64,000 bases of DNA from Macrotis lagotis (lineage: Eukaryota > Chordata > Mammalia > Peramelemorphia > Peramelidae). Every line of letters begins with the position of its first letter. Position 1 is the first letter of the stretch. The notes under the pieces were generated by a model. The model was not told the DNA's origin. It ran no database searches and worked only from the letters and a program-made list of their open reading frames with translations. The translations under genes were made by a program, and so were the position numbers. The stretch covers positions 185,258,306-185,322,305 of the forward strand of contig NC_133661.1 of NCBI RefSeq assembly GCF_037893015.1. The letters are read 5' to 3'. Shown one piece after another: positions 39,191 through 64,000 of this stretch.

Positions 39191-39303
39191 TCATAAATGA
39201 ATATCTTCACTCATCTCGTGGTAAATGGCCTGAAGTGCATCAGTTGCTTGAAGGGATACTTTCAGTTTTCCAATAGTGGCTGCTTTGTCCTGAGGATTGA
39301 TGA
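39191..39303 (-). CDS. RPGRIP1: RPGRIP1 terminal coding exon
   Basis: 113 bases from acceptor TTAAATAG to TGA. Encodes [19 protein letters not shown] and ends [10 protein letters not shown], matching the human end (which finishes E-M-T-E-D-L-F-S). Confidence 0.93.
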
Positions 39304-42300
39304 CTATTTAAAAAAATAAGACATGAGACAATAGAATTAAGATTTGCTTCATCCTGCCTTGGGAGCTAAGAGCTAAATTTTACTAAGTCATCTGAAAGGG
39401 TGGGGGGCCTGGATATAGAATTTCTTTAGTGGCGCCAGATATTCCCCATTTGACTACTATTTTTCTGTACATTGTACTCTCAAACCAGAGCAGCAAAAGG
39501 TTAAGTGACTTAGTGGTTCACACAGCTGCTAAATATGAGGTTTGGATCCTCTATCTCGACTCAAATCCAGTCCTCATTTTCACTCCATGGTCCCTTGAAA
39601 TACAAAACCATTTAAGTTCTTCGCTGTCTCTCTTATGAAGGAATAAATGAAGCCAGTGTTTTTAGGACCTTTTTTCCTAAAATAGATTTTTGGGGGGGGG
39701 GGTTTGCAAGGCAGTGGGGTTAAGTGACTTGCCCAAGGCCACACAGCTAGGTAATTACTGTGTCTGAGGCCATATTTGAACTCAGGTACCCCTGACTCCA
39801 GGGCTGATGCTCTATCCACTGTGCCACCTAGCTGCTGCTTAAAATAGATTTCTTTAGAAACTTTATCATAATCAAGGAAGAGGCAGAAAATCAGTGCTGA
39901 GGATTCATGCCCATAAAAATTTTGCGGAATGCAACCAAATCCAGGAAAAGTCTTGTTTATGAAAGGGAAGTTTGGTTCTTTAAAATTGCCAGTTAAAGAG
40001 TTCAGAGATAATATAACAATCCTCTGCTGTGTAGGGTAGTCATAGGCCAACTTTAGGGTTAGCTGCAATTAAATGACAATATGACAATACATAAAAGATT
40101 CAAGTTTAGTAGCATTCCACCAACTTTGCACTTATCATTGTAAAGAAAAAGTGAAAGTTCATTCATGAGATGCCTTGTAAGAGTACTCACTGTCTATCTC
40201 TTGTTCTAAAATGTCTCTTCCTGTATGTAGGATCTGCCAGAGTTCCAAGTAAGCATAGCCCACTTCTTGACATTCATTCTTTTGCTCTTCAGGATCACTC
40301 ACCACTATAAACTTAAATCTAAAGAAGAAAATTATTTCCCTTTGACAGGATTCATTTTTAATAGGCTTTGCTTTTTTTAATCTCATCACATATCTTATGT
40401 ATTTTTTTCTCACACCCCCCAGTTAACAGAGGAAATATGACATGATGACATTGTCTCTTCAGGAACATTTTAAGAATAAGGATTAGCAGAGTCGTTGCTT
40501 TTTAAAATTGTCTTTCAGGATCAGAAAACCCCACAAAATACTATCTTGAGAGGAGGGTTCAAAGACCATGAAATGGACAGAAATCCACATCAGATTTGAG
40601 ACCCTGTAAATAATCTTAACATTGCTCAGTCAAATTTTTTAAATGTTATTTTACATTAATAGTAAAGATAATTTTCAGCATTGATTTTTAAGTTCCAACT
40701 TTTTCTTTCAACCCCCTCCCCAAAATGTATAAACTATATTTCTGTATTAAATGATTTTATACAAATTCATTCATCACAGAATCAAACCCAAATAATTTCA
40801 AAAATCTTAAAATCAACCCCCTCCCCAAAATGTATAAACTATATTTCTGTATTAAATGATTTTATACAAATTCATTCATCACAGAATCAAACCCAAATAA
40901 TTTCAAAAATCTTAAAATTAAGACTAAACTTTTGAGTGACAGAACCCACAGAAAGGTCCAGTAAGGCAATTCTCCAGCCCAAGGTTAACCTGGAAAATAG
41001 TGGAAAAACTTCCACAGGGTTAGAGGGGTAGCCCGCCAGAGTGAAGGAACTTCAGCCTCCCAGGAACAGCTCCAGGGCACCTGGGAGCCATACCTTCCAG
41101 TAACAGAAGCAGTTTCCTGACCTGCACCCCAGGGGGCACCAAGCACATCTTATAAGATCAACAGGGAGACCTCTGCCAGAATGATTACGAAGCCCAGGCC
41201 TTCAGTGCAGTTGTGACACTTAGTGCAGCCACAGCGGCCCAGATCCAGGAAACAGAAGCAGGCCTGCAGAGTCGCCCAGCAGGAGCCTCCAGGCAGCTGC
41301 ACCCTGAATGCTCAGCCCACTGAACGTAAGGGAGTGGAGGGAGACTTCCAAGGTCTGTCCTCTGTCTCTGGAACAGTCCTCTGGGGCTCTGACCACATTC
41401 AGATCCTGATCGCCGTCTAGGCCCCGCATAGCGCAGGGAGCCTCACACACAGGTCCTTGAGGGAGTGTCCCAATAAAAGTCAAAAGCTTAGGAAGCACCC
41501 CAAAACAGGCACAGGCTGGGGAAATGAATAAAAAAAAAGAACAGGACTATTGACAATTACTTTGTCTATGATCCATCCCATGGGAGGATCAAAATAATCT
41601 GATGAGAAAGTCCAAGCTTCTGCATTTAAAGACTCCAAGAAGTTAAATTGGACTCAGGCTATGACAGAGCTCAAAAAAGATTTTGAAAATCAAGGGAGAT
41701 AGAAGAAAAATTGGAAAGAGATAAGAGAGATGCAGGAAAAACATGATAGAAGAAAAATTGGGAAGAGATGAGAGATATGCAGGAAAAACATGAAAAAATC
41801 AGCAGCTTAGTCAAGGAGATGGAAAAAAATGCTGAAGAAAATAACATTAAGGTGCGGCTAGGTGGTGCAGTGGATAAAGCACTGGCCCTGGAGTCAGGAG
41901 TACGTGGGTTCAAACCCGGTCTCAGACACTTATTACCTAGCTGTGTGGCCTTGGGCAAGCCACTTTAACCCCATTTGCCTTGCAAAAACCTAAAAAAATT
42001 AAATGTTAAAAACTAGCTTAGGTCGAATGGATAAAACAGTTCAAAAAGTTAGTGAGAAGAATGCTTTAAAAAACAGAATTGGCCAGATGGAGAGGGAGAT
42101 AAGAAAGATCTCTGAGGAAAACATATCCTTCAGATGTAGAATGGAACTAAAGGAAGCCGATGACTTTGTGAGAAATCAAGACCATAGATCAACACAGAAG
42201 AATGAAAAATTAGAAGAAAATGTGAAACATTTCATTGAAAAAATGACTGATCTGGAAAATAGATTCATTGGGATACCTGAAAGTCATGATCAGGAAGAGC

Positions 42301-45300: not shown

Positions 45301-48300
45301 TCTAAATCACCTGCTTAATGGAAAATGTTCATATACGTGATCCATCACATTTAAGAAATATTTGTGGACTATATATGTTGAATAGATCAAACTGCCTTAG
45401 GGAGAAGGGATTTAGTTTCTTTTACAAAACCCTATCAATAGTCAAATACTGAGACAACAAAAATATAAGCACTGCCAATGGCTGGGACACATGAGGATGT
45501 GAACTATACTATCTAATTAAGTTTAGATGACAAAGCTGCCGCAACGAAGGTTTAATTTCTTGATATGAAGATTTCAAGAAGCATAAATCAAAAGGAAAAT
45601 AAAGAAATTTGAAAAGGGATACATCAGGTATATCCAGCAGTGTGAGAACCCTCTACAGCATAGCTCCATTGCCTATGAACAAATAGGAAGCACTTACTGT
45701 CTCTGCTCAGGATTTTTTTCTTGCAACATAGAAAAGAGAAATTTCCTTCGGTCTCTGTGTTCCATTGGGTTCAGGTCTATCACTGTATACAAAGAGAGAA
45801 ACATTGGTAATCTTTTCTCTCATTTTTACAAATAAATTGTAAATTGTAAATTTTGCTCATGGTCCCATAGCTCCTAAGTGCCTTAGAGTTAGTACCCAAT
45901 TCTGATAAAAAAAAAAAAAAACAGGGCTCTTTTTACCTCTTTTCTCACCTTACTTTCATGCCAGATGCATCTCCCAAACTGTCCAAAGTAAAGGTCTGAC
46001 CATAATGAAATCCTAGTACAGTCAGAAAATAACACTAGGAAGACTTAGAAAATATGGCCTGACAGATTTCAGTTTCTGCTCCTAGATATGATATAGATGC
46101 TCCTAAGCCTAGATATTCAGTTAAGTCATTGTAATCTGATCATCTAAGTCTAAGATCCTGTAAAGGACCAGAACAATTCCCTCCGGACAAGTTGGAGAAG
46201 GTTTTCAGTCAAAGCCTTTTGTCCTCATTGAATCCACAAGACCCCTGACAAACAGGGAATCTGAATAGTAGGAAGGTTGGGCTTTACCTTTCCTGAAATG
46301 AAAGTAGATGTCTTCCCCAGCCCTGGGTTTCCGAAGGGATACAGGTGTCTCTGTCTCTGACAAGGGCAGATCATGAAATTTGTACTCCACATACACCTGC
46401 TGAATGCTCTCATCAGACATAACTTCAGCCTTGGGGTCAAAGGCCAGAGACACAATTTCAATGCAGATCTTGTCTGAATTCTAAAAAGAAAAAGATCTCC
46501 ATTTCTCTTTTTTCTCCCAGCAATTTAGGTACTAGATGTTTGGTAGATAAGCAACACCCCCTATTAAACTCTGTAGCAGATGCATGATCTCACTTGCAGG
46601 TCACAAATGGCAAAATTATGGCCTGAGAAGTGCTGTATAAATACTCATTTGCTTAGTGGAAGATCCAAATACAAAACTCAGAAGTTTTTTGGTCCCAGTC
46701 CCACAAATTGCTTTCTTCACTAAGCATTTTCTTGCTATATGAGCACCCAAGAAGAGCTAGAAATACTTTCTGGTCAAGTAGAATTTTAAAATATTTTTCT
46801 AAATAATGACTTATTATTATAGAATCAAGGTTTAAATATTACAATTAAATTGAAATTTTATTCTCTCACACAGGCTACAAAAGTAAACTCCTCACTGGTA
46901 AATATACTTAGACCTACTTAAACTCACAATCCATCTTTTTTGTTACCTGTCACATGATAATGCAGTTTTGATTTTTCTGAGATCATGGTATTCCATGATT
47001 CACAAACATAACATCACTGTAAGCATTTTGTTTCTTAAAAGTATGGACAGGGAGCAGCTAGGTGGTGTAGTGGATAAAGCACCTGCCTTGGAGTCAGGAG
47101 TACCTGGGTTCAAATCCGGTCTCAGACACTTAATAATTACCTAGCTGTGTGGCCTTGGGCAAGCCACTTAACCCCATTTGCCTTGCAAAAAAAAAAAATA
47201 TATGGACAGGAAATAATGCCATGCCATTTTTTCCAAATGTGCAAAACAATTTTCTCCTGTTATATATTCTGGTCAGCTCAGTTTCTGTCCAAAATATACA
47301 TAGAGTTAGAACTAAAGGACTCACTCACTCACTCACTCATTCATCTGAATGTAAAATCTAGACAATCTATGTATTCATTTTATTCTTATATTCTGTACAG
47401 GCCTTTCTCTTTCAAATAACTAGCATCATTAATTGGGCTTTGTTAATATAATTCATACAACTGTTGCAGCAGCATCTGTATATAGAATTCAGAGAAAAAT
47501 GCAACTGATAATGGTTTGCTTCTTCTATTTATAATCTGCAAGATATCCTCTGACATTTCAGTGGATATATGTCTCTAAATTACAATTTGCTTATGTTATT
47601 TTTGTGGTTCAGTTTTTCAATCATATCCGATTGTCACTCAATCATTTGGGGTTTTCTTGGCAAAGTTACAGGAGTGTTTGTCATTACTGTCTCAAGATCA
47701 TTTTACATTTTGAGGAAATTGAGGCAAACAGTGTTAAGTGACTTGTCCAGGGTCACATTATGTATCTGAGGATGAATTTGAACTCAGGAAGATAAGTCTT
47801 ACTTTGACTTCAGACCCTGAACTCTTATCCATGCACCACCTCACTGCCTGGTAAGATACCTTTCTAAACCATTATCATCACACCCCTAGAAGTCTAGTGT
47901 CCTCTTGAGGCCAGATAATAATCCACAACCTCCTCTGTGATACCCTACTCAAGTGTGCATACTACTAAAGTATCTTATGAAAATTCTTATTCCCTTTAAG
48001 TATTAAAATAATCTGATTAAAGTAATAAACTAGGAGCGGCTAGATGATGCAGTGGATAGAGCACCAGCCCTGGAGTCAGGAGTACCTGAGTTTAAATCTG
48101 GTCTCAGACACTTAATAATTACCTAGCTAGTGGCCTTGGGCAAGCAAATTTATTTTAACTATCATCATTTCAATGTGTTTTTTAAATAAAGTTATTTCAT
48201 ACCCAGCACAAAAACTCAGCTGTTCAGTGTTCATAATTCCCATTCATATGGCAATTCTCTTTACCATTTTTGTTCCAGCTTTTTGTACCAGTTTTTCAAT

Positions 48301-51300
48301 TTCTTGTTTGTGTGTGTTGGATTCTCACTGTGGGGGGAATATCCCAAGTGCTTTAAAGAGACAATCTAGAAACATACTGTTTGGTACTGAGTAGAGGAGC
48401 CATCCTTAGGTGAAGAGTTCATTTAATACAATAATCAGTTTGTTACACTAATACACTAAATCTCCAATATAGTATAATTCCATTTTGACTAAGTAATGTT
48501 GATATTCCACCAATATAGAACTGAACTAGGTGCCTACAAGGGGCCCTAGATCCTGTGACTTTATAATTTTAAGTATGAGAACTAAACCACCTGTGATTTC
48601 ATTAGTATGAGGAAACTCAGGCTGGGAAAACTCCCTCTAACACAAGTCACTACCTTGTCTTCTTGTTGCTGAGAACACTGATAAGTGAAATGACTTACCC
48701 AGGTTCATATAAGTCAGGATAAGTCTGAAGAGGGGTTTGAACTTAGGTCTTCCTGGGTTTGAGGCCAGCTCTCTATCCACTACACCACATTGTCTCATCT
48801 TTACTTGACCAAATAAGAAGTAGAGCTTGCATCTGCTTTTTATTCCTTCACTTAAATATTATTTATTCTCAGAGTTTACAGTCTTATCACACTCTTATTG
48901 GTCATCTCCAGATTGACTTACTGTCTTAGGTCCTTTCTGAGACAGGGGTGTTACTATGACATCATCACTGTCTGTTGTCGGTGTTTCACTGACTTCTTCA
49001 CCTTTTTCAAAAGGTTGATTAGCTGCTGTAGAAAAGACTGTAGTTATATCTCCATGTCAGATAATACACCCTTCCCAACAAGAGGTCCAGTACTCCATCC
49101 CATTGTTTGGTTTTCAGTAACAAGGTCATGAAATCCAGAAATGAACTGTATTTTTTGCAGAGATAAAGCAAGGCCTCTTTTCACAAAGTTTCACTTATTC
49201 TGAAATTTTTCTAGCTATCAAACAGGAGGGGAAAATCCTTCAATAACAGTTATAGAACAAAAATAGTTAGAAGTAGTATGGAAGAATTAGAACCTGCAAA
49301 CATATAGGCAACTGCCTGGACTCAAGGTCACTTTTTAAAATAAATAAATATTTTTCATGCCAGGAGAATATTCTGTGTCACACAGGCATTTGCTTTATGA
49401 TAAATCAAGTTGCTTATGATGTAGCAAATCCTCTAGTCAATAGTTACACATACCCAGGTATACTAAAATCCTGCCAAGGCTTTTAAAATGCCTTGTTCCA
49501 AAGACATTCTCCAATTGACAAATGGTCAAAGTATATGCAGAAGCAATTTACAGATGAGGAAATCAAAGTGATCCATAGTCATATGAAAAACTGCTTTAAA
49601 TCATTATTGATTAGAGAAATGCAAATTAAAGCATCTCTGAGGTACCACCTCACACCTCTCAGACTGGCCAATATGACCAGAAAGGATAACAATCATTGTT
49701 GGAAGGGATGTGGGAAATCTGAGACACTATTACATTGTTGGTGGAGCTGTGAACTCGAGTATCCAGCCTTTCTGGAAAGCAATTTGGAATTATGCCCAAA
49801 GGGCAACAAAAATGTGCATACCCTTTGATCCAGCAATACCACTACTGGATCTATACCCTAAAGAGATCGTGAAAAAAGGTAAAAATCCCAGATGTACAAA
49901 AATATTCATAGCAACCTTGTTTGCGGTGGCAAAGAATTAGAAGTCAAGTAATTGACCATCAATTGGGGAATGGCTAAACAAATCGTGGTATATGTATGTT
50001 ATGGAACACTATTGTTCTATTAGAAACCAGAAGGGATGGGATTTCAGAGAAGCCTGGAAAGACTTGCATGAAATGATGATCAGCGAAATGAGCAGAACTA
50101 GAAGAACATTGTACACCCTAACAGCAATATGGGGGGAGGGGATGATCAACCTTAATAGACTTGCTCATTCCAACAATGCAATAATCAGGGACAATTTTTA
50201 GAGTACCTGCGATGGAGAATACCATCTGTATACAGAAAAAGAATTGTAAAGTTTAAACAAAGACCAGATTATTACCTTTAATTTTTTAAAAAAGTTATCT
50301 TCTTTTGTAATTTTGCTATGTATTTTATTTTTTCCTTAAGGATATGATTTCTCTCTCAACACATTCAATTTTCCATGTAGTATGGAAACAATGTAAAGAC
50401 TATCAGACTGCCTTCTGTGGGGGGTGGAAGGGAAGGAATGAGATTGGATGAAAATTGTAAAATTTAAAAAACAATTTAAAAATGTCTTGTTCCAGATATT
50501 GCCCAGATGTATGAGAGTTCCAGAGATAAGAAGGGCTCAAATAAAATAGGTTCCTAAAACTAGAGGGATTTAAACAAGGTACATTCTTTTCTTCTATGGC
50601 ATCTTCCACAATGATCATTAGAGACCTTTCTTAACTAAAAACAACTATATTATGTTAAATAGAAATTGCTTCTTTTCTTAACACCATATTTCATTCCAAT
50701 AATATCTTGCTGACAATAATGTTAACATAGGATCATAGAACTGAAAGGGACCACAAAGATTATCTCATTCAACTCCCTCTGCAAACTGAGACTCAGATCA
50801 GTTAAGAGACTTGTCCAATGCAACTCAGGCAGGAAAAATCCCAGAGAGCTAGGATTTGAAACCAGGTTCTCTAACTCGAGTCAATACTTCTCATGTGCTG
50901 GAAAGCCTCTACTCAACTATTCTCATATTTCTATAGTGCTTTAGGATTTACAAAGACCCTTCTCACAACAGACAACTATCTGAGGTAGAAAAAATATTAT
51001 CCCTATATTGTTGCTCAGAAAACAGATAAGGTGACTTGCTCATACCCACATGGCAAGTATCAGAACTGGGACTATCAACTCCTTCAGGAGAAACTTTCAC
51101 TTTGTCTTATTTCCAATACTTAGCAAGTTTGTTGATTTTGTCTTAAGACTAGTACTTCTTTCAGAACCAATTGACTCCAGATTTTTGCCTTTCCCCAATG
51201 TATCTAGTGTGCCGATATAAAGAGAAGTGCAATTGTTGAACATCTGAGGCTCAGGAGAGTTATTGAAGAGATGATATGTAAATAGTACTGCTTTGGTTCA

Positions 51301-51463: not shown

Positions 51464-54400
51464 GAAGAGAGAAAAAAATTATTTTCTACACTTCTATAAA
51501 TAGCTGGTCCTTGATCTTATAATTTTCTTTTATCTCTACTTATCAACCACATTTTCCATGAATAAAAAGCCAGTGGATACAGGGCAGATTAAAAAGAATG
51601 TGAAAAGGGATGGAAAAATATAGATGTAGTCAATTGGGTATCACTATCCTGTCTTAAGAATAGTTCATTTAGGGGGCAGCTAGGTGGCGCAGTGAATAGA
51701 GCACCAGCCTTGGAATCAAGAGTATCTGAGTTCAAATCCAATCTCAGACTTAATAATTACCTAGCCGCGTGGCCTTGGGCAAACCACTTAACCCCATTGC
51801 TTTGAAAAATTTAAAAAATAAAAAAAAAGAATAGTTCATTTAGTATGTCAGATGGTAATTGCCAAGAATGTTTAAGATCAAGTATTCCTGAGATAATTTC
51901 CCATACTGAGCTCTCACTATTGAAAATAAAAGCTGGGTCATGGTTCAGAGAAACTTGTTTCTTACAAGTAAAAAAAAAATTCTATCCAGAAGTTTTGTAC
52001 TCTCTCCAGTCTTATGATTTTCTTTTGAAAATGTTACTATGTGCCTCATGGAAGGTATTTAATCTGTCAGTATCTGTTTTACTAAGGCTCTTTCCAACAC
52101 TAAATCCTATGATCATAAAGTGAAGATGGATTTTCCTGTAATTAGCTGGAAAATACACACTTATCACACACATGAGTAAAACACACCTCCCTTCTGCTCC
52201 TGCCAGTGCAGTAGTACATGGAGCTTTAGGGATAACATAAGCATAATATTTAATTAAGGTCCTATAGCTAAATGTGCAGTTGACCTGTCCATTAGGGTTA
52301 CCAGTTCCATCTGATTAAGAACTACAGCATGAGGACTTTTGTTTATTTTGTTGGCTATTTAAAATAGAAATTTGAATAGAATAGGAAAGCAGCAACCAGT
52401 TTTCCTTGGTGGTTAAGTACATTTTAAAAGAGACAATACCAGTGTAAGGAGATGGAGCCTCCTGCGGCTTTACTTCTGGGTAATATTCCTCTGCTTCTCG
52501 TTTTGTATCACCCATAGCACCTGAAAATTTCCTCTTGTTCACCTGCTTTAGAAAAAGACACCCATCACTGTATAGCTGGCAGTGGTTTCAGTCTAGTTTC
52601 CTCTGAGGTCATTAGATTTCTATAAATAGCACCAGTTAAGCAGTAGGTGATCAATTAATGCTGGGTTGGGGGGGAGGGGAGATGGTCCCATATCAGGTTA
52701 CTATATTATAAGACATACATGTTTAATTAGTTTGTGGAAAATTAAAACCCTGGCTACTAGTGCTTCCTTGTTTACCTTGTCACTTAAATTTTCCCAGATC
52801 CAACACAAAGCTGTCAGAATCCTTTACTCCCAAGCATTGTTGCCATCTTATTCCTTTCTTTCAAAACTTAGAAATAGCTTCCAAAGTTTCTGGCTTCCTC
52901 TTATCTTACCATCTTATCCCCTGAACTAGTCTACTCCAAATAAGCAGATGAGCTTTTCTTCAGTTTCCTCCTACCCTTCAAAACAAGTAGCATTAAGCAT
53001 CTATTCTGTGCACCCTGTGCTAAACACTTGGATTTACAAAGAATGGCAAAAACACCCAGCCATTTCTATATTCTACAGAACTTTCCCATAGCATTAGCTG
53101 GACTCTAGTGAGCCTTGTCCTTTTTCCTCTCCAAATCTTACCTTCCCATCCTAAAAACCTTTCCAGACTAATCCCACCTGATTTTCATCACAGCTGTAGC
53201 CATATCAACCCCTCTAAATAGAAATCTTTTCTCCTTTTTCATGCCCTTTATATTCAAGTATTTATACACAAATCTGCATACAATTCTATTAGAAAATTGT
53301 TCTCTTTCCTGGAAAATGATTCTGAAACAGGGTGAAGGGGTTCAGTATGTATGTGTTCTGGCTCTGGCCCCCTGCTTCCTGATGGGTCCCTCGATCCTCA
53401 TTTATGATGATGAGGTTTGGGAAGATATTGAAAATGATGTGCTACATTCAACTGAGATCAATGTATAACACAAGACCAATGTAAACACTAACAGAATGCC
53501 TTCTGTGGGGGGTGGAGGGAGGGAAGCAAGAATGGGGGAAAGATTTTAAACTCAAAATAAATAAAATCTTTCTTTAAAAAAAAAAATGATGTGCCTGAAA
53601 GTCACCACCACAACGATGAAAGGAAGGAGATAGGAGTTCCTTCTCTTTTCTCATTCCCCTAAGATGAAATCAGGAATGCCAAGTCAAACATTTGAAAAAA
53701 ATTAAAGAGGAAGGAGAACTTGACATCTTTTATGCTGCTGTATAGTTTGTCTTGGCTTAGTCATAGTCCTTGTCGCCACATACCCATAACAGGAACCTAG
53801 AGATGAATCAAGAGTACATAAACCCACTAACAAAGTTCTAAGGCCCATATGACTCTAGAAGTGGCCCGAGCACATAAGCTCAGTCCCATTTCACCCATTA
53901 CATACAAAAATATAGTCTGGTTTTTCAAAATGCCTAATTCAAATAAATTTATGGTATTGATGACCAACTTGGCTTATATGACCATGGCAGCTTATATCTT
54001 TCTCTTCCAGCTCTGAGAATACAGTTGTGGGGGACAGTTCACCCAAATTTTGCCTAAGATTCTTACTCGCCTCTTAGTTCTTACTTCTGATCTATTTCTA
54101 ATCAAGCAATCAAGACAAGGACTTTACTTTCTATTCATCTTTCCTGCCATATTTTATTCCCCAAAATAGCTTTCAACCTGTAACTTCCTTATTTTATATT
54201 TCTCTAAGGTTAGACTCAGTTATTAGTGATGGAAGTCAAGGGTTAGAGGAGAAAATTTCCACAACTTTAATATCTAAAAACCATTTTTTGCATTCATTTT
54301 ATATGTTATTTTTCTATTTCAGGGATGCTAAGAAAAACTTTTATTGTAGTTGAAACCAAAGTTATGCTAAACTAACCCCTTCCCTTCCGGAATATTCCCA

Positions 54401-57400
54401 TTTCACTGGGTTTTCAGACTTTCTTTTGGTTTTCCTACTACCTACTCATCTCAGTAATTCTTTAGGTTTTTTTTTTTGCAAGGGTAATGGGGTTAAGTGG
54501 CTTGACCAAGGCCACACAGCTAGGTAATTATTAAGTGTCTGAGACTGGATTTGGACCCAGGTACTCCTGACTCCTGGGCGGGTACTTATCCACTGCGCCA
54601 CCTAGCCGCCCCCTGTCTGAGTAATTCTTAACTCCCTTTGAACCACCCCACTGTGTTTCATTGTACCCCATGTCTTTGTATCTCTCTCTCTCCTCAGCTT
54701 CCATGATTTACATAATCATCTCTATCCAGATGATTATTACATCTACTGACCTGGCTCTCATTTTGCTCCTGAAGTCCAGTCCCACATTACCAATTGCTTG
54801 CTTTACATATCTCTAATCTCCATGTCCCATATACATCTCAAATTCAACATATCTAAAATGGAATTATCTTTCTCCTGAAACACACCCCAACTTATTTATT
54901 CCTTATTTCTATTAAAGTCACTATCATCCCTTTAGCCATGCAGATTCACCACACTTCAGTGGTATCTTTGACTGTTTCCTCTATCTTACCATAGTTATCC
55001 AAAGGATTGGAGCCACCTCCAACTGACAAAGAGCCATTCCTGAAACAGAGCACATTTTCTAGAGATGGCTTGGCCTTGGCCAGATTTGACAAATGTTATC
55101 TCCTGTATCAGTTTGGAGCTCTCCATTTATTCTGCCACTGTACTAATTCAGGAATTAGTCACCTCCAGCATACACCATTGTATCCACCTCCAACTGGCAA
55201 AGAGCCATTCTCCTGAAACACAGCAGTTTTCATAGTGTTCCTAAAACAAATCCAAACATGACACCCTCTTTCTCCAGAAGCTCCCTCTTACACCAAAGAT
55301 AAAAGATAACTCATTCTACTGGGCTCAGTGAAATTACTCTCTTTTACACAAATCCAGCTGACTTTCTTGCTGTTCTCTGAGAAGGATGTACTCTGGCTCA
55401 TTCCTCTGTGCTTTTGAATGACTGTCTCACAGATATCCCTGCCCTAATTACCTCTGATTTGTCTCCTTCAAAGCTCATCCTAGGGGCAGCTAGGTGGCAT
55501 AGTGGATAAAGCACTGGCCTTGGAGTCAGGAGTACCTGAGTTCAAATCTGCCCTCAGACACTTAATAATTACCTAGCTGTGTGGCCTTGGGCAAGCCACT
55601 TAACCCCATTTGCCTTGCAAAAAAAAAAAACTCATCCTAAAGAAGCCTGTTTTTATCTCCTATTCATCTTCCCCCAAAAGTTATTTTGTATACATTTTAC
55701 ATTTAAATTTCCATATTTTAAATTTCCACATTTTCCCACTCCCTCCAATAGATAGTGAACTTCTCAAGGCTAATTACTGTTCTCTTTGTCTTCATATTTG
55801 TTTCCCAATAAATATAAAAGTAAATAAAAATGATCCCATTTCCTTGCTGAAATTTTCTAGATCCAGAAATGCTGGTAAAGTCAGTAAGAGAAAGAAATTA
55901 AAGATATAAACATAGGCAAAGAGGAGATAAAGCAAATCTAGGTTTGATTTACTTAGAAAACCCCAGGGAATTAGCAAAGAAAATAATTCAGATAATAGTT
56001 TTAGTAAAATAACAAAAACAAAATGAACCCATATAATCAACCACAGTTCTATGTAATAACAAACTATAGAAGTAAAGAATAATTCCATTCCAAATAACTA
56101 CAAAATGCATTAAATATCAAGCAATATTTGTATCCCAACACCTACCACAGTGTCTGGCACATAATAGTATTTTTACAAATGTTTATTGAATTGAGTGGTA
56201 CTGATGCAATGTTTTCAGTAACAATTCAACAAACATTTATTAAGCACTAACTATATGCAAAACACCATCCTTTCACCCCAGTCCTCATAATACTTTCTCC
56301 ATAATTCCTTCCTAAATCAGGCAAAGGGCTCCCTACCTGGTGAAATAAAATGTTTTCTTCTTCAATTGGAATCTCTCTAGGCTTCTCATTATAAATTTTT
56401 ATAGGTTCAGGTGCTTTATTATAATCTTCTACCAACAGGGGCAACTCATTGTCATTTTCTATAGATAGCTTTCCCTTGTGACTGTTTTCTAAAAACTTTT
56501 TGGCTTCATCGAAGTTTTCTACAGATGCTTTTGCTTCATCGAAGTTTTCTATAGATAGTTTTGCCTCCTCGAGGTTTTCTATAGACAGCTCTGCCTGGGT
56601 GGGATATCCTATAGACAGCTTGTCCTTGTTGAGTTTTTCTGTAGATAGCTTGTCCTTGAGATTTTCTAAAGCTGGTTTATCCTCATCAAGGTTTTCTATT
56701 ACTATAGATAGCTTGTCCTCATCTCGGTGTTCTGTCTCTTTCAATGACTTGATCTTGTCAAGGTTTTTTATCTCTATAGATGCTATGGCCTCATCAAAGT
56801 TTTCTATCTCTATAGATGGTTTGGCTTCATAGAAGTTTTTTATAGATGACTTTGCCTTATTGAGGTTTTCTATAGACAGATTGTCCTCAGCAAAGGTTTT
56901 TATCTCTATAGATATCTTGGCCTCAGTGAAATTTTCTATCTCTACAGAGAACTTATTCTTGTCAGAGTTTTCTATAGACAGCTTTGCTTCAAGATTTTCT
57001 ATAGACAGCTTGGTCTTTGCAAAATTTTCTGTCTCTATAGATGGCTTGTCTTCATCAAGGTTTTCTATCTCCATAGATAGTTTGTCTTCAAGGTTTTCTA
57101 TCTCTATAGATTGCTTTGCCTCATCATGATTTTTTATAGATGGCTTTGCCTTGTCAAAGTTTTCTATAGACAACTTGACCTCAGTGAGATTTTCTATCTC
57201 TACAGACTGCTTGTTCTCATTGAGGGTGTCTATCTCTGTAGATGTCTTTATCTCATTGAGGTTTTCTATAGACCTAACCTTAGTCAGACTTTCTAGAGAT
57301 GGCTTGGCCTTGGACAGGCTTTCTAGAGATGGCTTTGCCTCATTGAGGTTTTCTATAGACAGCTTGAGTTTGGCCAGATTTTCTATAGACAGCTCAGCCT

Positions 57401-60400
57401 TGAGGTTTTCTATTGGTGACTTTGTCTCAAGATTTTCTATAGATGGCTTGGCCTGGATCATATTTTCTATAGATGACTTTGTCTTGTTGAGGTTTTCTGT
57501 AGATGGCATGGGCTTGGCCAGGTTTTCTAGAGATGGACAGGCCTTGACCAGGTTTTCTATAGATGGCTTTGTCTCGAGGTTTTCTAGAGACAGCCTGGCC
57601 TTGACCAGGTTTTCTAGAGATGGCTTTGTCTCAAGGTTTTCTGGAGACGGCCTTGTCTCAAGGTTTTCTAGAAAGGGCTTGGCCTTGACAAGGTTTTCGA
57701 GAGATGGCTTGGCTTTGGAGAGGTTTTCTATGGATGGCTTGGCCTTGGCCAGATTTTCTAGAGATGGCCTGGCCTTGACCAGGTTTTCTATAGATGGCTT
57801 TGTCTCAAGGCTTTCTAGAGATGGCCTGGCCTTGATTTCTGAAGACAGCCTTGTCTCAAGGTTTTCTAGCAATGGCTTGGCTGTGGCAAGGTTTTCTAGA
57901 GATGGCTTGGCTGTGACAAGGTTTTCTAGTGACAGCTTTGTCTCAAGGTTTTCTAGATTTGGCTTGGCCTTGGCCAGGTTTTCTGTAGATGGCTTGGCCT
58001 TGGTGAGATTTTCTGTTTCTATAGGTGGCTTGTTCTCCACAAGTTTCTCTCTCTCTTTAGCTGGTGTGGCCTCATCAAGATTCTCTATAGACAGTTTTGT
58101 CTTGTCATGATTTTTTATAGATAACTTTTCCTCATTGAGGTTTTCTGTAGACAGCTTGACCTCAGTAAGGTTTTCTATCTCTGTAGATGACTTGGCCTCA
58201 TCGAGGTTTTCTCTCTCTATAGATGGCTTATCCTCATTGAGGTTTTCTCTCTCTATAGTTGTAGTTTCATCTAGGTTTTCTATTTCTCTAGAGGATTTTT
58301 CCTCCTTGAGGTTTTCTATTGACAGCTTGACCTCATGGAGTTTTTCTATTTCTATAAATGACTTAGTCTCATCAGGTTTTTCTATCTCTATAGAAGGCTT
58401 GTCCTCATTGAGGTTTTCTATCTCTGCAGATGGTTTGTCCTTGTCAGGGTTTTCTATCTCTATAGATGGTATGGCTTCATTGAAGTTTTTTATTTCTATA
58501 GACAACTTGATCTCCTCAAGGTTTTCTAGTTCTATAGATAACTTGCTCTCATCAAGTTTTTCTATTTCTATAGATGGCTTGGCCTTAATCAGGTTTTCTC
58601 TTTCTAGAGATAAATTGGCTTCATCAGAGATTTCTATAGATAGCTTTGCCTCATTGCAATTTTCTATAGGTGTCTTGGTTTTGTTATGGTTTTCTATAAA
58701 CAGTTTGGCATTGCAGTTTTCATTAGATGGCTTAGCTTCATCACTTTCTCTGGATAGATTTACAAAGGGCAAGTTTTCCTCATCATCTTCTACATTTAGA
58801 TTCACCTCATTTTCTATAGACAATTCTGCCTCATTATCAACAGACAGAGTTGCCTCCTTGTACTTTTTTGTAGATAGAATTGCCTCAGAATTTTCTTCAA
58901 ATAGGGGTGCCTCAGAATGTTCCACAGATAGGGGTGCTTCATTGTTATGTTCTATATGCAAGTCTGTCTCATTTCCTACAGAGGGAGGTGCTTCATTGTA
59001 ATCTACTTGCAGGTTTGCCTGTTTTTCTACAGATAAGGGTGCTGGTGCTTCATTGTAATTTTCCACAGACAGGGATGCCTTGTCATTTTCAACAGACTGG
59101 GTAGCTGACTTCAGGGAACTCTCTGGAGATAGGTAAGGAGATTCCCACTCCAATTTCAGTTCAACAGACCCATTGGGTTTCCCCATAGGGTCACTGACGA
59201 AGTTACCTGGAACATACAGGTATGAATAGATATCAAGTCTGGATGATTCAACATTATGACCTTTACTTCAGGTGTGAATCTGGGTTTTATTTAAAATAAA
59301 ATGAAGTTCTACCATATAATGATAGTATTATTACTTAGGAATGACACTATGCATTATTGAATTTATAAGGGAGTGAAACTATTATGGCATTCGGGGTGGA
59401 AAAAGAGGTAGAGGAATATGACTTGCCTTCTAGGACCCCCACTGAGGGAAACTTTGGTTCAGGTAGATGGTGGTAGTGATAATTACCAAATCACATGTTA
59501 GTATCCCAGTGTTATAAGAGTTAAAAGCTATCTTAGACCCACTTTTCTGGTGAGAAAATAAAGAGGCTTAAAGGTAAAATGATCTCCTCAAAGTCACACA
59601 ACACAGGGCAGAGCTAGAATATGAATGCCTCAAAACCCAACTACACCAAATTAGCCCTGACATCAGTGCTTCCTGATTCCACCCCCAGTCCTTATACAAC
59701 TTTTTCCTCTATATCCAGATCGTAGAACTGCATTCAGGAAGACTCGTAGTGCATGAAGTAGGGTTGGGGTTGGGTTTGGAGTTAAGGGTTGGAGAGATGA
59801 GATTAAGAAGCAGTGAGAGTTCTACTATTTAGGAAAAGAGGTAGCTAAGAAATTGAATTTAGGGAAAATACATCTAAGCATAATCCTGGCTATTGGCTGG
59901 AGTTTTTAAAATGAAGAAAGCAAATTGAGGGGATGATTTAAAGCCAAGTTCATTATTATATAATAAACATTAAACCTCAAACTGAAAAGCATTAACTAGA
60001 AAGATTAGGAAAAATCCTAGGAAGCACTATTATAAAGTTTTAGTAACTTTGTATCAAAGATTGAGTGGTTTTCAAATGGGTTGTAGGAATTTTATTTAAT
60101 TTATATTTCTGATTAGAAACAGAAAAGTTCTGGGTTCTTCTAAAAGGGATCCATAGAGCAATAATTCAAGATAGATAGCTTGGTAGTTTTTAACAGACTT
60201 CACAGACAGAAGTAAGAAGAATGAATGGGTCTATTAATTTCACTCACCTTAAATAGCTTTATCTTGTGAAAGAGGATGTAAAGTACCTGAGCTTTGCCAA
60301 GCAACTAACCTAGCTCCTATTCCAGGACCATCTGCTAGGGATATTGATCCAATTCAAAAGTTTTGTGCACTGGGAAACTGGTATGATTACCAAAGTGGAA

Positions 60401-62549
60401 GTGGCTGATGGCAGAAATGATCGGTGTGGCATGGTCAGCAAAGGTGAAGAATTGATAGATGACATATGAACTGGATTCGTGTCCCCAAATGTTAACTCCT
60501 AAGGTTTAGTATTTCGTGATTTCCACCTACAATAATTTTCTATGCTTGAAAATCTGAGATTTGGACTGGAAAGAGGTAGCACATTGGTTGTGGAAAAATT
60601 AATAGGTTTTTGGAATTGTGACTAGAAGATCAAAGTGATGAGGGAGTTATGGACATAGGGAACATTGTAATTGGAAACAGATTTTGTAATCTTTTCCTGT
60701 CAAATTCTGCCTAGTAAAGAAATGTTATCTGTGCCTCAGGTGTAAGGTGTAAATTGACTCCTATTGATCCATTGTTAAAATGTAAATTTGTAACCTCTCC
60801 TCATTTCCACTCCCCTCTCCCCCAGCTTCCATCTTTTTACCTGCTTTCAGTCCCAGAGTGGGAGAGATTTCCCCTTTGCCAGATTCTCCTGACCCTTCCA
60901 AACCCAGAGAATGGCCACAGACTAGCTCCAGTCTCAGCCCCATCAGTCCTCCTGGCTGGCTGGCTCTCACTCAAACCTCACCTAGCCTTTTAATTCTCCT
61001 ACCCTCAAGAAGCTTACAAATTTGCTTGCTGCCTCTACAAGTGGAAAAAAAATTTTAATGGGTAAACTTTACAAGCTTATACAATAAAACCTGAGCAGTT
61101 TTTAAATTGCAGGGCTCTATGTGAATTTTTTACCCTCAAGACCTCTTAAAATTGGAGACCAATCCTCTGGCAACATAAATACTGCCCAACAGGAATTTTT
61201 TCCTGCTGGGGTGATAACCCAATGTCCATTTGCCAATTTATGTCTTTATTTTTAAAAATTTGCTCAGAAAAGCAGCTTTGCTCTCTCATAGTTAGTATAA
61301 CTTCAATCAAGAAGAAAATTCAAAATAGATGATTAAAGATCTCATCTAAATTCAAGGAAACACACAGCATATACCCTGCTGACTAGAGATGGAGGGAATT
61401 AATGAAAACCTTGGATCCATAAACTATCTTTTTAAAAAAAGTTCAAAAGACTTTTTAGCAAAGCAATGGGGTTAACACAGTAGATAGAAAGTGTCTGAGG
61501 TCATTTTTGAACTCAGCTCCTCCTCAATCCAGGGCCAGTACTCTATCCACTGGGCCATTCCAAGCACTTTTCCACACTTTTCTATCCTTCCACAGTGTTC
61601 CATACACAAAATGCAGAAGACTAAGAAGCTGGCTTTGTTCTTTTGAATGGGAGGCACAATTGGGAAAAACCACAGAGCACTTAAGGTTAGGAGAATTGAA
61701 TTATTAACTTTTATTATTAGCTTGCTAGTGCTGCTCTGATAAACTGGTGTGTAATAGCTCCTTTGAAATATGTTGGAATATTCTCCTCACCTCCTCCAGC
61801 TGAGCCTTTCTGGCCCCAAGCACATTAGCAGACAGGTATGCTTGGGCTTTCAATTGCTTATTGTATACCTGTAGGCAGTGTGCTATGGGGAATTTCAGCC
61901 TCATCCAGTACTCCAAAGTCCCAAATTCTTCTCCATTATTTCCTGGAGACCAGAAAGTAGGACATGCATGGAAGAAACAGATGTAATAACATGGTTTAGA
62001 AACAAAGGAAGAGATTGTGAAAACAGTGCAAAAATAGTCAGGTAGCTTCAGAAAATCTACATTAACACTAGGGAACTCTGGGAAAGCCTAGCATGCACTT
62101 ACCAGTAAGCATAGCAGTACCATAGACCTTCTCCACCGTCTCTAGCACTTTGTCAAAATGAAGCCAGCCAACTGCAAGGGTTTTGTGGTCAAGAGCTGCA
62201 GTCTGGTGGAGGTTAATTCGGGTTAAAGCCCCTTGTAAATAGTTCAGGAAAAGGTAATCTGTTGTCACCATATACTGGGAGGTGAAATCATAGAGAGGTT
62301 GTGGTCCCACAGCCAGTGGGGTGCAGTGGATTTCAAAATCATAGAAGGAATAGGTACAGAAGGAGGCAAACTGGGGATCTCCAGCTTGGGACAGGGCTGC
62401 AGGTGACAGAAAGGCCTGATGAATATGCAATTCAAAAAGGTTTTCACCCTGGTATAGCTGTTGAGTGTCCACTTTATTATCCTCATGGACTGGCATTTCC
62501 AGACACAGTGGAAACTTCAAAGTACCATAAGCCATATCTTTGAGCTGTA
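39191..62549 (-). CDS. RPGRIP1: RPGRIP1, C-terminal two-thirds, with a giant repeat exon and a decayed C2-C exon
   Basis: RPGRIP1 scaffolds the photoreceptor connecting cilium, tethering RPGR and binding NPHP4. Exons in transcription order: 62549-62103, 61942-61791, 59206-56337, 52542-52440, 49025-48922, 46480-46288, 45782-45698, 40318-40191, 39303-39191 (TGA). From the repeat exon to the stop all junctions are GT-AG and in phase, giving 1197 residues. The first two exons encode the C2-N domain and linker, the last four the RPGR-interacting domain (S-L-R-K-P-R-A-G-E is conserved). The exon for C2-C (60565-60248) is degenerate, and the junction 61791 to 59206 is out of phase, so the true splice path there is unresolved. 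Upstream coiled-coil exons lie beyond the window. No clear polyadenylation signal is visible after 39191. Identification rests on close match to human RPGRIP1 from memory and on synteny; RPGRIP1L is excluded by sequence. Confidence 0.93.
39304..40190 (-). other. RPGRIP1 last intron with one SINE
   Basis: Holds a MIR-like antisense fragment (about 39478-39580) and the inverted SINE at 39690-39838. The rest is unrecognised. Confidence 0.6.
39690..39838 (-). mobile_element. Marsupial tRNA-derived SINE
   Basis: Inverted copy with a G-run near its tail. CCTAAAATAGATTT before and CTTAAAATAGATTT after mark the target duplication. Confidence 0.92.
40191..40318 (-). CDS. RPGRIP1: RPGRIP1 exon, RPGR-interacting domain
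   Basis: 128 bases, acceptor TTCTTTAG, donor GACA|GTGAGT. Encodes F-K-F-I-V-V-S-D-P and [13 protein letters not shown] then [10 protein letters not shown], the diagnostic core of the domain. Confidence 0.95.
40708..40917. repeat. Exact tandem duplication, 105-base unit
   Basis: Copies at 40708-40812 and 40813-40917 appear identical base for base, ending where the L1-type element begins. Either very recent or an assembly artefact. Confidence 0.95.
41851..41998 (+). mobile_element. Marsupial tRNA-derived SINE nested in the HAL1-like element
   Basis: Sense copy splitting the ORF1-like region, so it arrived after the host element. Low divergence. Confidence 0.92.
43338..43482 (+). mobile_element. 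Marsupial tRNA-derived SINE
   Basis: Sense copy with head GGGGGTGGCTAGGTGCCACA and a slightly shortened middle; tail AAAAATATATATA. Confidence 0.9.
45698..45782 (-). CDS. RPGRIP1: RPGRIP1 exon, RPGR-interacting domain
   Basis: 85 bases, acceptor GTATACAG, donor CA|GTAAGT. Encodes [19 protein letters not shown]. Phases fit both neighbours. Confidence 0.93.
46288..46480 (-). CDS. RPGRIP1: RPGRIP1 exon, start of the RPGR-interacting domain
   Basis: 193 bases, acceptor TTTTTAG, donor AAAG|GTAAAG. Encodes [15 protein letters not shown] and [17 protein letters not shown]. This C2-like domain binds the RCC1 propeller of RPGR. Confidence 0.95.
47050..47200 (+). mobile_element. Marsupial tRNA-derived SINE with exact target duplication
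   Basis: TATGGACAGG at 47042-47051 and 47201-47210 flanks a low-divergence copy. Confidence 0.95.
47603..47852 (-). mobile_element. tRNA-derived SINE with an RTE/BovB-like tail (MAR4/WALLSI type)
   Basis: The + strand starts with the complement of the RTE tail (GGTTCAGTTTTTCAATCATA), passes CATTTGGGGTTTTCTTGGCA, then a MIR-like centre, and ends with the complement of the tRNA head (CCATGCACCACCTCACTGCC). Confidence 0.75.
48032..48147 (+). mobile_element. Marsupial tRNA-derived SINE, 3' truncated
   Basis: Full head and B box, but the copy stops after GGCCTTGGGCAAGCA without the usual tail. Confidence 0.88.
48640..48800 (-). mobile_element. MIR-like SINE, antisense
   Basis: The complement carries a tRNA-like head (GTGTAGTGGATAGAGAGCTG) and B box region followed by a MIR-type core. 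Confidence 0.6.
48922..49025 (-). CDS. RPGRIP1: RPGRIP1 exon, Asp/Thr-rich linker
   Basis: 104 bases, acceptor TTTTCTACAG, donor ACA|GTAAGT. Encodes [18 protein letters not shown], a nearly exact match to the human linker before the RPGR-interacting domain. Confidence 0.93.
49501..50478 (+). mobile_element. L1, 5'-truncated 3' end with target duplication
   Basis: Encodes the degenerate end of L1 ORF2 ([15 protein letters not shown], then [22 protein letters not shown]) and the marsupial L1 3' tail (GCCTTCTGTGGGGGGTGG). AAAATGCCTTGTTCCA at 49485-49500 and the same with one change at 50479-50494 are the target duplications. It is antisense to RPGRIP1. Confidence 0.92.
50735..50915 (-). mobile_element. 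MIR-like SINE, antisense
   Basis: GGATCATAGAACTGAAAGGG start, MIR-type core complement, and a B-box complement near 50850. Old copy. Confidence 0.5.
51672..51826 (+). mobile_element. Marsupial tRNA-derived SINE with target duplication
   Basis: AAGAATAGTTCATTTA occurs before (51656-51671) and after (from 51827). Low divergence, A-rich tail. Confidence 0.95.
52440..52542 (-). CDS. RPGRIP1: RPGRIP1 exon downstream of the repeat exon
   Basis: 103 bases, acceptor CTAAAGCAG, donor ACTG|GTATTG. Encodes [15 protein letters not shown] and [11 protein letters not shown]. Starts in phase 0 and ends in phase 1, matching both neighbours. The first base after the donor GT is A and +5 is G, a moderate site. 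Confidence 0.85.
52770..53230 (+). mobile_element. L2 3' fragment, sense, old
   Basis: Reads like the L2 ORF2/3' end (CAACACAAAGCTGTCAGAAT, later the CTTTCCAGACTAATCCCACC region). Heavily diverged. Confidence 0.5.
53443..53582 (+). mobile_element. Short L1 3'-tail insertion with exact target duplication
   Basis: AAAATGATGTGC at 53431-53442 and 53583-53594 brackets 140 bases containing GCCTTCTGTGGGGGGTGGAG and an A-rich tail, the marsupial L1 3' end. Heavily 5'-truncated. Confidence 0.9.
54465..54613 (-). mobile_element. Marsupial tRNA-derived SINE
   Basis: Inverted copy with a T-run; CAGTAATTCTT before and GAGTAATTCTT after mark the target duplication. Confidence 0.92.
54640..54995 (+). mobile_element. 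L2 fragment, sense, old
   Basis: Follows L2 RT 3' sequence: ATCTCCATGTCCCATATACA, then CTCAAATTCAACATATCTAA and CACACTTCAGTGGTATCTTT. It is the opposite strand of the same L2 region seen at 4812-6160. Confidence 0.65.
55054..55087 (-). repeat. Stray copy of the RPGRIP1 repeat unit in the neighbouring intron
   Basis: The + strand segment containing TTTTCTAGAGATGGCTTGGC followed by CTTGGCCAGATTT matches central units of the repeat exon (for example 57290-57316 with one mismatch). It lies about 1.25 kb past the exon's donor, inside the intron, on the same strand, between two imperfect copies of a 40-base sequence (about 55012 and 55184). Confidence 0.75.
55482..55630 (+). mobile_element. Marsupial tRNA-derived SINE with target duplication
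   Basis: CTCATCCTA occurs just before the head and again directly after the A tail. Low divergence. Confidence 0.94.
56337..59206 (-). CDS. RPGRIP1: RPGRIP1 giant repeat exon (about 956 codons of short tandem repeats)
   Basis: 2870 bases open throughout, from acceptor ATGTTCCAG to donor CACCAG|GTAGGG. The first about 30 residues ([20 protein letters not shown]) match the end of the human C2-C/linker boundary, which places the exon. The rest consists of roughly 85 degenerate units of 9, 10 or 12 residues: K-P-S-I-E-N-L-x-x-A (10), [12 protein letters not shown] (12), K-P-S-L-E-N-L-E-T (9). Composition is extreme: Glu, Lys, Ser, Asn, Leu and Ile dominate, with almost no aromatic residue and essentially no Cys. 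It should form an extended charged rod or disordered spacer. The exon re-enters RPGRIP1 sequence at E-E-E-N-I-L-F-H-Q and is in phase with exon 52542-52440. Confidence 0.88.
56440..59100 (-). repeat. Coding minisatellite, 27/30/36-base units
   Basis: The + strand shows the same units as (T)TTTCTATAGATGGCTTGG-like repeats. Units of 36 bases (E-I-E-N form) prevail in the outer parts and 27/30-base units in the central block (about 57262-57990). The most diverged units are at the 5' end of the exon (58740-59100). Confidence 0.9.
60248..60565 (-). pseudogene. RPGRIP1: Decayed RPGRIP1 exon for the C2-C domain (relict)
   Basis: Reading the - strand from acceptor CTCTTTCCAG to donor AAG|GTGAGTG gives 318 bases that align in order with the human C2-C exon: V-E-I-T-K, then [25 protein letters not shown], and S-Q-D-K-A-I near the end. 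In the starting frame there are stops at 60529-60527 (TAG), 60508-60506 (TAA) and 60337-60335 (TAG). A net deletion of about 20 bases shifts the frame before the last block, which also ends in TAA (60251-60249). Splice sites remain good. It looks like a once-functional exon under relaxed constraint; sequencing error is unlikely given the number of lesions. Confidence 0.85.
61451..61556 (-). mobile_element. Marsupial tRNA-derived SINE, degenerate
   Basis: The complement retains GGCCCAGTGGATAGAGTACT and a diverged body with a central deletion. Confidence 0.7.
61791..61942 (-). CDS. RPGRIP1: RPGRIP1 exon, end of C2-N and linker
   Basis: 152 bases between acceptor GTCTCCAG and donor GAGGAG|GTGAGG. 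Encodes [17 protein letters not shown] and [17 protein letters not shown]. It ends in phase 0, which cannot join the repeat exon (phase 1 needed) if the C2-C exon is skipped. The frame stays open beyond this donor. A weaker GT after base 61745 would give the required phase; this alternative is inference only. Confidence 0.88.
62103..62549 (-). CDS. RPGRIP1: RPGRIP1 exon, C2-N domain
   Basis: 447 bases, beginning with two bases of a split codon after acceptor CCCTTTAG and ending one base into a codon before donor GTAAGTGC. It encodes about 148 residues including [41 protein letters not shown] and L-E-T-V-E-K-V-Y-G. This is the N-terminal C2 domain of RPGRIP1. It is fully open and highly similar to human. 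Confidence 0.95.
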
Positions 62550-64000
62550 CTAAAGGGAAAGAAAATATCTTCATTCAAGAGCTGAGAAATAAAGTAACTG
62601 GAAGAAACAGAAAAAGGTCTGAAAGTGACTGTCAGGTATCATTGTGATTCTAGGGGCAAAATTATGATGTCTGGAAGTCTTAACTTCAAATACAAAATCT
62701 GTTAGTGACATGGCAAATAAAATCAATGTTTTCTTGTCAGAGAATTGACCAAATGGATGATTGAAAAGTAGATACTGTATGTACTATATACATCAAACTC
62801 AGAAAAATATTTTGTGCAAAATTTCATCAACCTGTTAAGATTATTTTGGATTAACAGGTAAGGGTTGGGGGAAGGAGAAGGGAATAAGCACCTATTAGTA
62901 GTAGCAGCACCATGCTGCCCTTCTAAGTGTTATTATTCCTCATTTTACAGTTGAAGAAACTGAGAGGATAAGTGACTTACACCCAGGATCATACAGCTAA
63001 TATATGCCTAAGACTGGATTTGAACTCATCCTCCTGAAATAATCTAGTTTAGCAGTCTATCCACCTTGGCATCTATTGAAATACTTATAGTTGGGATTTA
63101 TCAGAAGTTCAGTTTAAGAAATTTAATGTGATTATTCTCAACAGAATAGACTTGGAATACTGAATGAAGAAAGAACAAGCTATATTATATTCGTTAGAGG
63201 TATTCTGTGCAGACTATCTTATCATCTGAGACTATATTTCTGACTACTGCCATGTGCCTGTAATAGACGTGTTGAATCATAGAGCCTCGCCATCACCGTG
63301 TTTTATACAAAATGCCCTCTTGGAGATTGATGTTTCAAGTTTCACATGGGATCAATGACAAGGGAAGGGACTAGAGAAAAGTCCTATGATTTATTTTTAT
63401 TCTGCTGAGGTATTAAGCACAGTTTCATTTTAGAAGGACTAGAAAGGGAAAAATACAAAGAGGTTAAAAAATGCTGATGGTGAGATGGGGCAGTTACATA
63501 TAACCCTTCTTCCTAATCTGGACCATCACCTTCCACCAGAGACCAATCAGAAACTTCAGCCTGTAGCTTGATGTAAAGAAGTTTGGATTCTAAGGGAGAA
63601 ACCACAAAGACTGGAGGACAAAACAAGAAGAAAGCAAAGTGACTCTCTTCTTAATACTAGAAGCCATTTCCCTCTGACATAAATTAGAAAGCACCTTAGA
63701 ACTCATCTAGTGGAAACCCTTCATTTCACAGTTGAGAAATTGAGTCCTAGAGAGTAAATCACTTGCCACAGCACACAATGAAACATAATGATGGAATAAA
63801 TAAGAGAAACAGGCTCTTGAGCTAATATCATAAAGATGATAGGAAAAGAGGAATACTAAGGACTTATAAAATCCTAGTCTTGGAGCTGGAAGGGGTGTTA
63901 AGAGGGCTCTTGATCCAAATCTCTCTTTTTATAAAGAAACAGAGGTACAGGGAAAGTTAAGTTATTTGCCCAAAGATGTCAAAAGCAGGAAGCTTCAGAG
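62550..64000 (-). other. RPGRIP1 intron upstream of the C2-N exon, running out of the window
   Basis: Contains MIR-like antisense fragments (about 62930-63070, 63690-63780 and 63870-63990). No further RPGRIP1 exon was recognised, so the coiled-coil exons lie beyond base 64000. Confidence 0.6.

Follow-up and report, generated by a model that had tools for sequence, protein, structure and literature searches.

The question raised by the RPGRIP1 locus of the bilby Macrotis lagotis is whether an uninterrupted open frame of 956 codons, most of them in a degenerate repeat array, is a true exon of this gene, and which protein the gene can still encode around it. The frame lies on the minus strand of a stretch of 64,000 nucleotides (contig NC_133661.1, positions 185,258,306 to 185,322,305 of the RefSeq assembly GCF_037893015.1), called the window here, which is occupied by the 3' half of RPGRIP1; the earlier exons lie farther along the same contig. 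The giant exon (exon 17) is almost certainly a real, coding RPGRIP1 exon. The more surprising result is that exon 16, which encoded the second C2 domain, is a pseudo-exon in this genome. The interpretation regarded as probable is that the giant exon encodes an acidic, probably disordered tether of marsupial RPGRIP1 and that the dead exon 16 is skipped in frame.

According to PMC8551679, RPGRIP1 has two C2 domains, the second of which carries 23 mutations, 15 of them null, and Leber congenital amaurosis in people is caused by RPGRIP1 mutations, many of which fall in this second domain. In other mammals, the C2 domains anchor NPHP4 and the C-terminal domain binds RPGR (PMC4466403, PMC5290278 and PMC4519163). 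If the interpretation is true, a comparable loss of the second C2 domain in people would be a null allele of a blindness gene, and a marsupial with a dead second C2 exon and an intact RPGR-binding end would be a natural test of the parts of RPGRIP1 that photoreceptors need. Among the matches listed, titles and abstract openings of the RPGRIP1 literature gave no account of the array, and no bilby-retina literature of use appeared among those listed.

The giant exon and its repeat array

Exon 17 comprises 2870 nt, or 956 codons, from 59206 to 56337 without a single stop in its frame, as the preliminary description of this DNA had proposed. Its splice sites, which had also been described, are present: the AG acceptor has a consensus score of 6.7, the lowest among the ten exons scored (the next lowest being 7.1), and the GT donor scores 8.8. 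The predicted continuity with the downstream exon was likewise borne out, the exit phase of 0 matching exon 18 at 52542 and the same join being present in a processed copy of the gene. All 59 occurrences of the motif GAAAAY fall in the coding frame, as do all 58 matches to a 15-base array consensus with up to four mismatches, while the other five frames contain 97, 93, 44, 10 and 89 stops.

Repeats of the S-[IL]-E-N type, by which the marsupial array is recognized, are present between the flanks KPNGS..LEWES and EEENILFHQ. The earlier figure of some 85 units is a fair, loose count for an array of 925 residues; a strict anchor pattern yields 60 units, spaced mostly by 10, 12 or 9 codons. Tandem repeat finding also returned longer periods (for example 87, 138, 144 and 231 bases), which we read as the trace of block duplications. 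A stray repeat unit of 33 bases was observed at 55055-55087, in the intron that follows the giant exon; it has coding-strand orientation and shares up to 94% identity with units of the array.

The array is rich in Glu, Leu, Lys, Asn and Ser and is net acidic, with 17.9% Glu and 199 acidic against 118 basic residues in 900. Pfam gave only two matches to the giant exon, both below the cut-off. An AlphaFold model of exon 17, built with eight sequences and of low confidence, had a mean predicted local distance difference test score (pLDDT) of 36.8, with 877 of the 956 residues below 50. A low pLDDT with few sequences is weak evidence for disorder, but the composition is concordant with it, and the array is probably disordered.

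The binding partner RPGR contains a long, low-complexity, Glu-rich coding stretch of its own, ORF15. The marsupial array resembles ORF15 in being a long Glu-rich coding stretch, but it lies in a different gene and is built from a different repeat.

Distribution of the array among marsupials

A protein search found 194 proteins, of which 120 were listed; 13 of these carried marsupial names, and no monotreme protein was among those examined. Eleven proteins were entered for length measurement between LEWES and EEENILFHQ, two of which, without the end anchor, were left unmeasured. The array comprises 277 residues in Notamacropus, 291 in Dromiciops, 343 in Petaurus, 514 in Sminthopsis, 535 in Monodelphis, and 543 in both Antechinus and Sarcophilus, compared with 925 in M. 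lagotis. Its length thus varies more than three-fold across the eight species measured, M. lagotis having the longest, and it would represent a repeat tether of variable length in a marsupial ciliary scaffold. In the database predictions for other marsupials, a like array occupies the same exon with the same flanks, between the second C2 domain and the RPGR-interacting domain. A search with the Dromiciops array alone gave 12 matches, every one of them a marsupial RPGRIP1. Beyond marsupial RPGRIP1, no array was found among the 7991 candidates sharing most words, although a highly diverged array could escape such a search; human RPGRIP1 is not known to contain such an array.

As far as these searches reach, the array therefore appears to be a trait of American and Australian marsupials and not special to M. 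lagotis. The proposal that it is lineage-specific holds in this sense for marsupials, and fails for the single species.

The RPGRIP1 locus

The exons referred to below are as follows. Their bounds and phases were taken from the sequence itself, and their numbers follow those of human RPGRIP1; the exon order and phases of the human gene agree with the M. lagotis locus.

62103..62549, minus strand: exon 14, open, phase 1 to 1, covering the greater part of the first C2 domain (Pfam C2-C2_1) (from sequence and Pfam)
61791..61942, minus strand: exon 15, open, phase 1 to 0 (from sequence)
60248..60565, minus strand: exon 16 (second C2 domain), dead, 318 nt, AG and GT kept, wrong phase for exon 17 (from sequence and homologues)
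56337..59206, minus strand: exon 17 (giant exon), 956 open codons, phase 1 in and phase 0 out (from sequence and processed copy)
56364..59138, minus strand: decapeptide-type array, 925 codons between LEWES and EEENILFHQ (coordinates from codon positions)
52440..52542, minus strand: exon 18, open (from sequence and processed copy)
48922..49025, minus strand: exon 19, open (from sequence and processed copy)
46288..46480, minus strand: exon 20, start of the RPGR-interacting domain, open (from sequence, Pfam and 4qam_B)
45698..45782, minus strand: exon 21, RPGR-interacting domain, open (from sequence and processed copy)
40191..40318, minus strand: exon 22, RPGR-interacting domain, open (from sequence and processed copy)
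39191..39303, minus strand: coding part of the last exon, with TGA at its end (from sequence)

By its remaining exons, the locus is the RPGRIP1 orthologue, with the second C2 domain lost. This identity, which had been suggested before, is supported by Pfam C2-C2_1 ('First C2 domain of RPGR-interacting protein 1'), which matches the open frame 62068-62574 containing exon 14 (1.4e-40), and by the last four exons, which form the RPGR-interacting domain: they match Pfam RPGR1_C (1.3e-64) and the solved RPGRIP1 chain 4qam_B (1.1e-77), through which the likeness to human RPGRIP1 is seen. The first C2 exon also matches 2yrb, a solved C2 domain of 'Protein fantom', the paralogue RPGRIP1L having C2 domains too. 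A different locus, on contig C1 of this genome near 303.4 Mb, is taken to be RPGRIP1L itself. The N-terminal coiled-coil exons are represented by open homologous stretches upstream of the window on the same contig, where the N-terminal part of the Dromiciops protein was not matched at every residue. The window is free of N, and no stop was found across its remaining exons (4195 nt) or in the aligned stretches of the 5' exons.

The dead exon of the second C2 domain

In the stretch of exon 16 matched by a whole-genome protein search there are five in-frame stops (four TAG and one TAA). Relative to marsupial proteins, the exon has a gap of 24 bases (eight codons), and reading of the sequence revealed two mutually cancelling frameshifts and a third near the end of the exon. 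Of the second C2 domain of RPGRIP1 only this remnant exon is left. Nevertheless, both its splice sites persist, AG at the acceptor and a strong GT at the donor, and with such sites it may still be spliced in as a poison exon.

The erosion was compared between exons at columns conserved across seven other marsupials. In exon 16, 22 of 65 such columns are altered, four of the differences being stops; this count omits 11 columns between the cancelling shifts, the eight gap columns and all variable columns. Exons 14 and 15, the start of exon 17 and exons 20-23 together differ at 17 of 310, a count that excludes exons 18 and 19 and the array (Fisher p = 3.6e-9 against exon 16). Taken singly, the difference from exon 16 is pronounced for exon 14 (p = 3.1e-6) and for exons 20-23 (p = 4.4e-9), the comparison sets being unequal (three other proteins for exon 14, seven to nine rows for the others).

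Among the remaining RPGRIP1 rows on the contig, all are free of stops except three with one stop each; two of these overrun the edges of exons 20 and 21, both of which are open, and the third is open across its aligned stretch. A test of whole-gene decay based on length only gave 8.6e-9 for seven lesions, which, assuming independent lesions and equal opportunity, is a rough guide.

Only the remnant was recovered when an intact exon 16 was sought between 61790 and 59207, both in translations of the three minus-strand frames and in a tblastn search with a human sequence. Furthermore, a full-length protein search of which exon 16 was part of the query, with 32 of 303 candidates scored, gave only the remnant and a diverged match of 50% identity on another contig, which we take to be the RPGRIP1L locus on C1. 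The second C2 exon is intact in the seven other marsupials compared (Dromiciops, Sarcophilus, Monodelphis, Antechinus, Sminthopsis, Petaurus and Vombatus). The array had been described as separating the C2 region and the RPGR-binding domain; its position ahead of the latter was upheld, but the second C2 exon that should precede it is dead.

Exon phases and possible isoforms

Since exon 16 is a pseudo-exon, a protein that combines the coiled coil and the two C2 domains with the array and the RPGR-binding domain is impossible from this locus. The length of the dead exon, 318 nt, is a multiple of three, and it would therefore enter exon 17 in the wrong phase even without its stops. Joining exon 15 to exon 17 also loses the frame, the combination 14+15+17 stopping after 16 codons, whereas exon 14 joined to exons 17-23 stays open for 1348 codons until the native stop. 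The phases allow the array to be read only if the dead exon 16 is skipped in frame, best by a join of exon 13 to exon 17; exon 13 would end in phase 1, judging from the 13-to-17 joins of relatives.

Such a join, which omits both C2 exons, occurs in five of the 120 listed proteins, all of them marsupial (Antechinus, Sarcophilus, Sminthopsis, Petaurus and Notamacropus), these isoforms of relatives being database predictions. Exon 13 is joined to exon 15 in four others, also marsupial, and to exon 14 in 107, and four proteins were unclassed. Because 13-to-17 isoforms are predicted in five marsupials, the loss of exon 16 seems to have been preceded by an isoform lacking the two C2 exons. The suggested near doubling of the protein may hold for an isoform.

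Processed copies of RPGRIP1

A processed copy of the gene is located on contig C1 at 742573902-742577177 (near 742.575 Mb), at about 758-2529 within that interval. The inversion of its 5' part resembles the outcome of twin priming. A second copy, 96% identical and in the same orientation, lies about 93 kb away (C1, 742666907-742670188). In the processed copy, exons 17-18-19-20-21-22-23 are joined without introns at six of six junctions, with a few bases missing at the 18/19 junction; germline mRNA thus once contained the giant exon. The copy begins inside exon 17, and splicing 5' of this exon is therefore outside its reach.

The copy shares the state of other marsupials (IHFHFNK, ILDTG and IFKEM) at residues that are private to the present gene, which marks it as old. 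Its array core, counted by hand, holds only some three or four canonical units ahead of the end segment; either copying took place when the array was short, or units have been lost since.

Proposed mechanism and alternative explanations

Taking the open frame, the marsupial distribution, the dead exon, the exon phases and the ancient processed copy as read directly, we infer the following for the isoform used in M. lagotis, its flexibility and any function in cilia. The array would have expanded through duplication of single units and of unit blocks. Exon 16 has decayed in this species, the remaining exons still being open, so that the array and the RPGR-binding domain would be reached most likely by splicing of exon 13 to exon 17, in which case both C2 domains are absent, and less likely by a join between exons 14 and 17. 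The N-terminal coiled coil would then be connected to RPGR by a very long flexible tether in a protein that lacks the second C2 domain, and continued use of the first C2 domain would be most cleanly served by a separate short product.

Bilbies see. More tentatively, and with rather less than even confidence, M. lagotis can be viewed as a seeing mammal that dispenses with the second C2 domain of RPGRIP1 owing to an older, C2-less tether isoform, the tether having then reached the greatest length seen; two products would be possible.

Several observations weigh against the proposed tether and skipping of exon 16. The excess erosion of exon 16 is less clear relative to exon 15 (p = 0.017) and unclear relative to the short start of exon 17 (p = 0.08). 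Amino-acid constraint inside the array is weak: comparison of nearest units gave 109 nonsynonymous and 55 synonymous single changes, a ratio of 1.98 against 2.51 expected. The AlphaFold model contains a few helical segments predicted with moderate confidence (34 residues at pLDDT 70-90). A 14-to-17 join would trim the end of the first C2 domain, as the Pfam match to this domain in Dromiciops extends into exon 15. Exon 14 has a normal rate of private changes (6/104, compared with 8/107, 6/106 and 20/120 in other lineages), so that the first C2 domain seems to be still in use, which a 13-to-17 isoform alone leaves unexplained. Furthermore, exon usage in M. lagotis is deduced from sequence. Finally, the RPGR-binding exons 20-23 have 5/151 private changes against 0-2 in other lineages; the dasyurids, one of which was entered twice, show zero or few such changes, since the set includes their close relatives.

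This last excess, together with that of exon 15 (4/36, above most lineages), would be in keeping with decay of RPGRIP1 as a whole. On this view the loss of exon 16 abolished the long protein, and the giant frame is open only because turnover of the array and the little time elapsed have spared it. A dead exon with good splice sites would lead the usual transcript into a premature stop, and in simulations of neutral change without turnover the array remained stop-free in 47 of 200 runs at 2% change and in 12 of 200 at 5%. However, only 2 of 200 runs remained so at 10% and none of 200 at 20%, the erosion of exon 16 far exceeds that of the other exons pooled, and the other window exons and the aligned 5' stretches are free of stops; decay of the whole gene is accordingly considered unlikely, though with a real chance of being correct. 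The normal rate of exon 14 is instead accommodated if the output is split into a short product of coiled coil and first C2 domain, ending at or before exon 16, and a C2-less product of array and RPGR-binding domain. Exons 14 and 15 together cannot join the array in frame, and C2-skipping isoforms are predicted in marsupials, both of which favour this arrangement, but it is drawn from genomic sequence, and a stop in an internal exon normally triggers mRNA decay; it is judged rather improbable.

That the dead exon 16 is an assembly or haplotype artefact, an intact copy existing elsewhere, has to be considered because a single assembly was read. Five stops, a gap and changes at a third of the conserved columns are nevertheless beyond sequencing error, the protein search recovered only the remnant and the RPGRIP1L-like match among the 32 of 303 candidates scored, and the window contains no N, which makes this explanation very improbable. 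A noncoding minisatellite that is open by chance is hardly credible: units in multiples of three easily keep frames open, and one plus-strand frame has just 10 stops, but every motif copy was found in one frame. This explanation of the array was ruled out by the single register, by the homologues predicted to be coding in other marsupials and by the processed copy, which carries the array spliced.

Neighbouring sequences

Long open frames were also observed on the plus strand at 959-1726 and 9175-9804 of the window. These may represent CHD8 exons, which they resemble, and the human gene order CHD8-SUPT16H-RPGRIP1 agrees with this placement.

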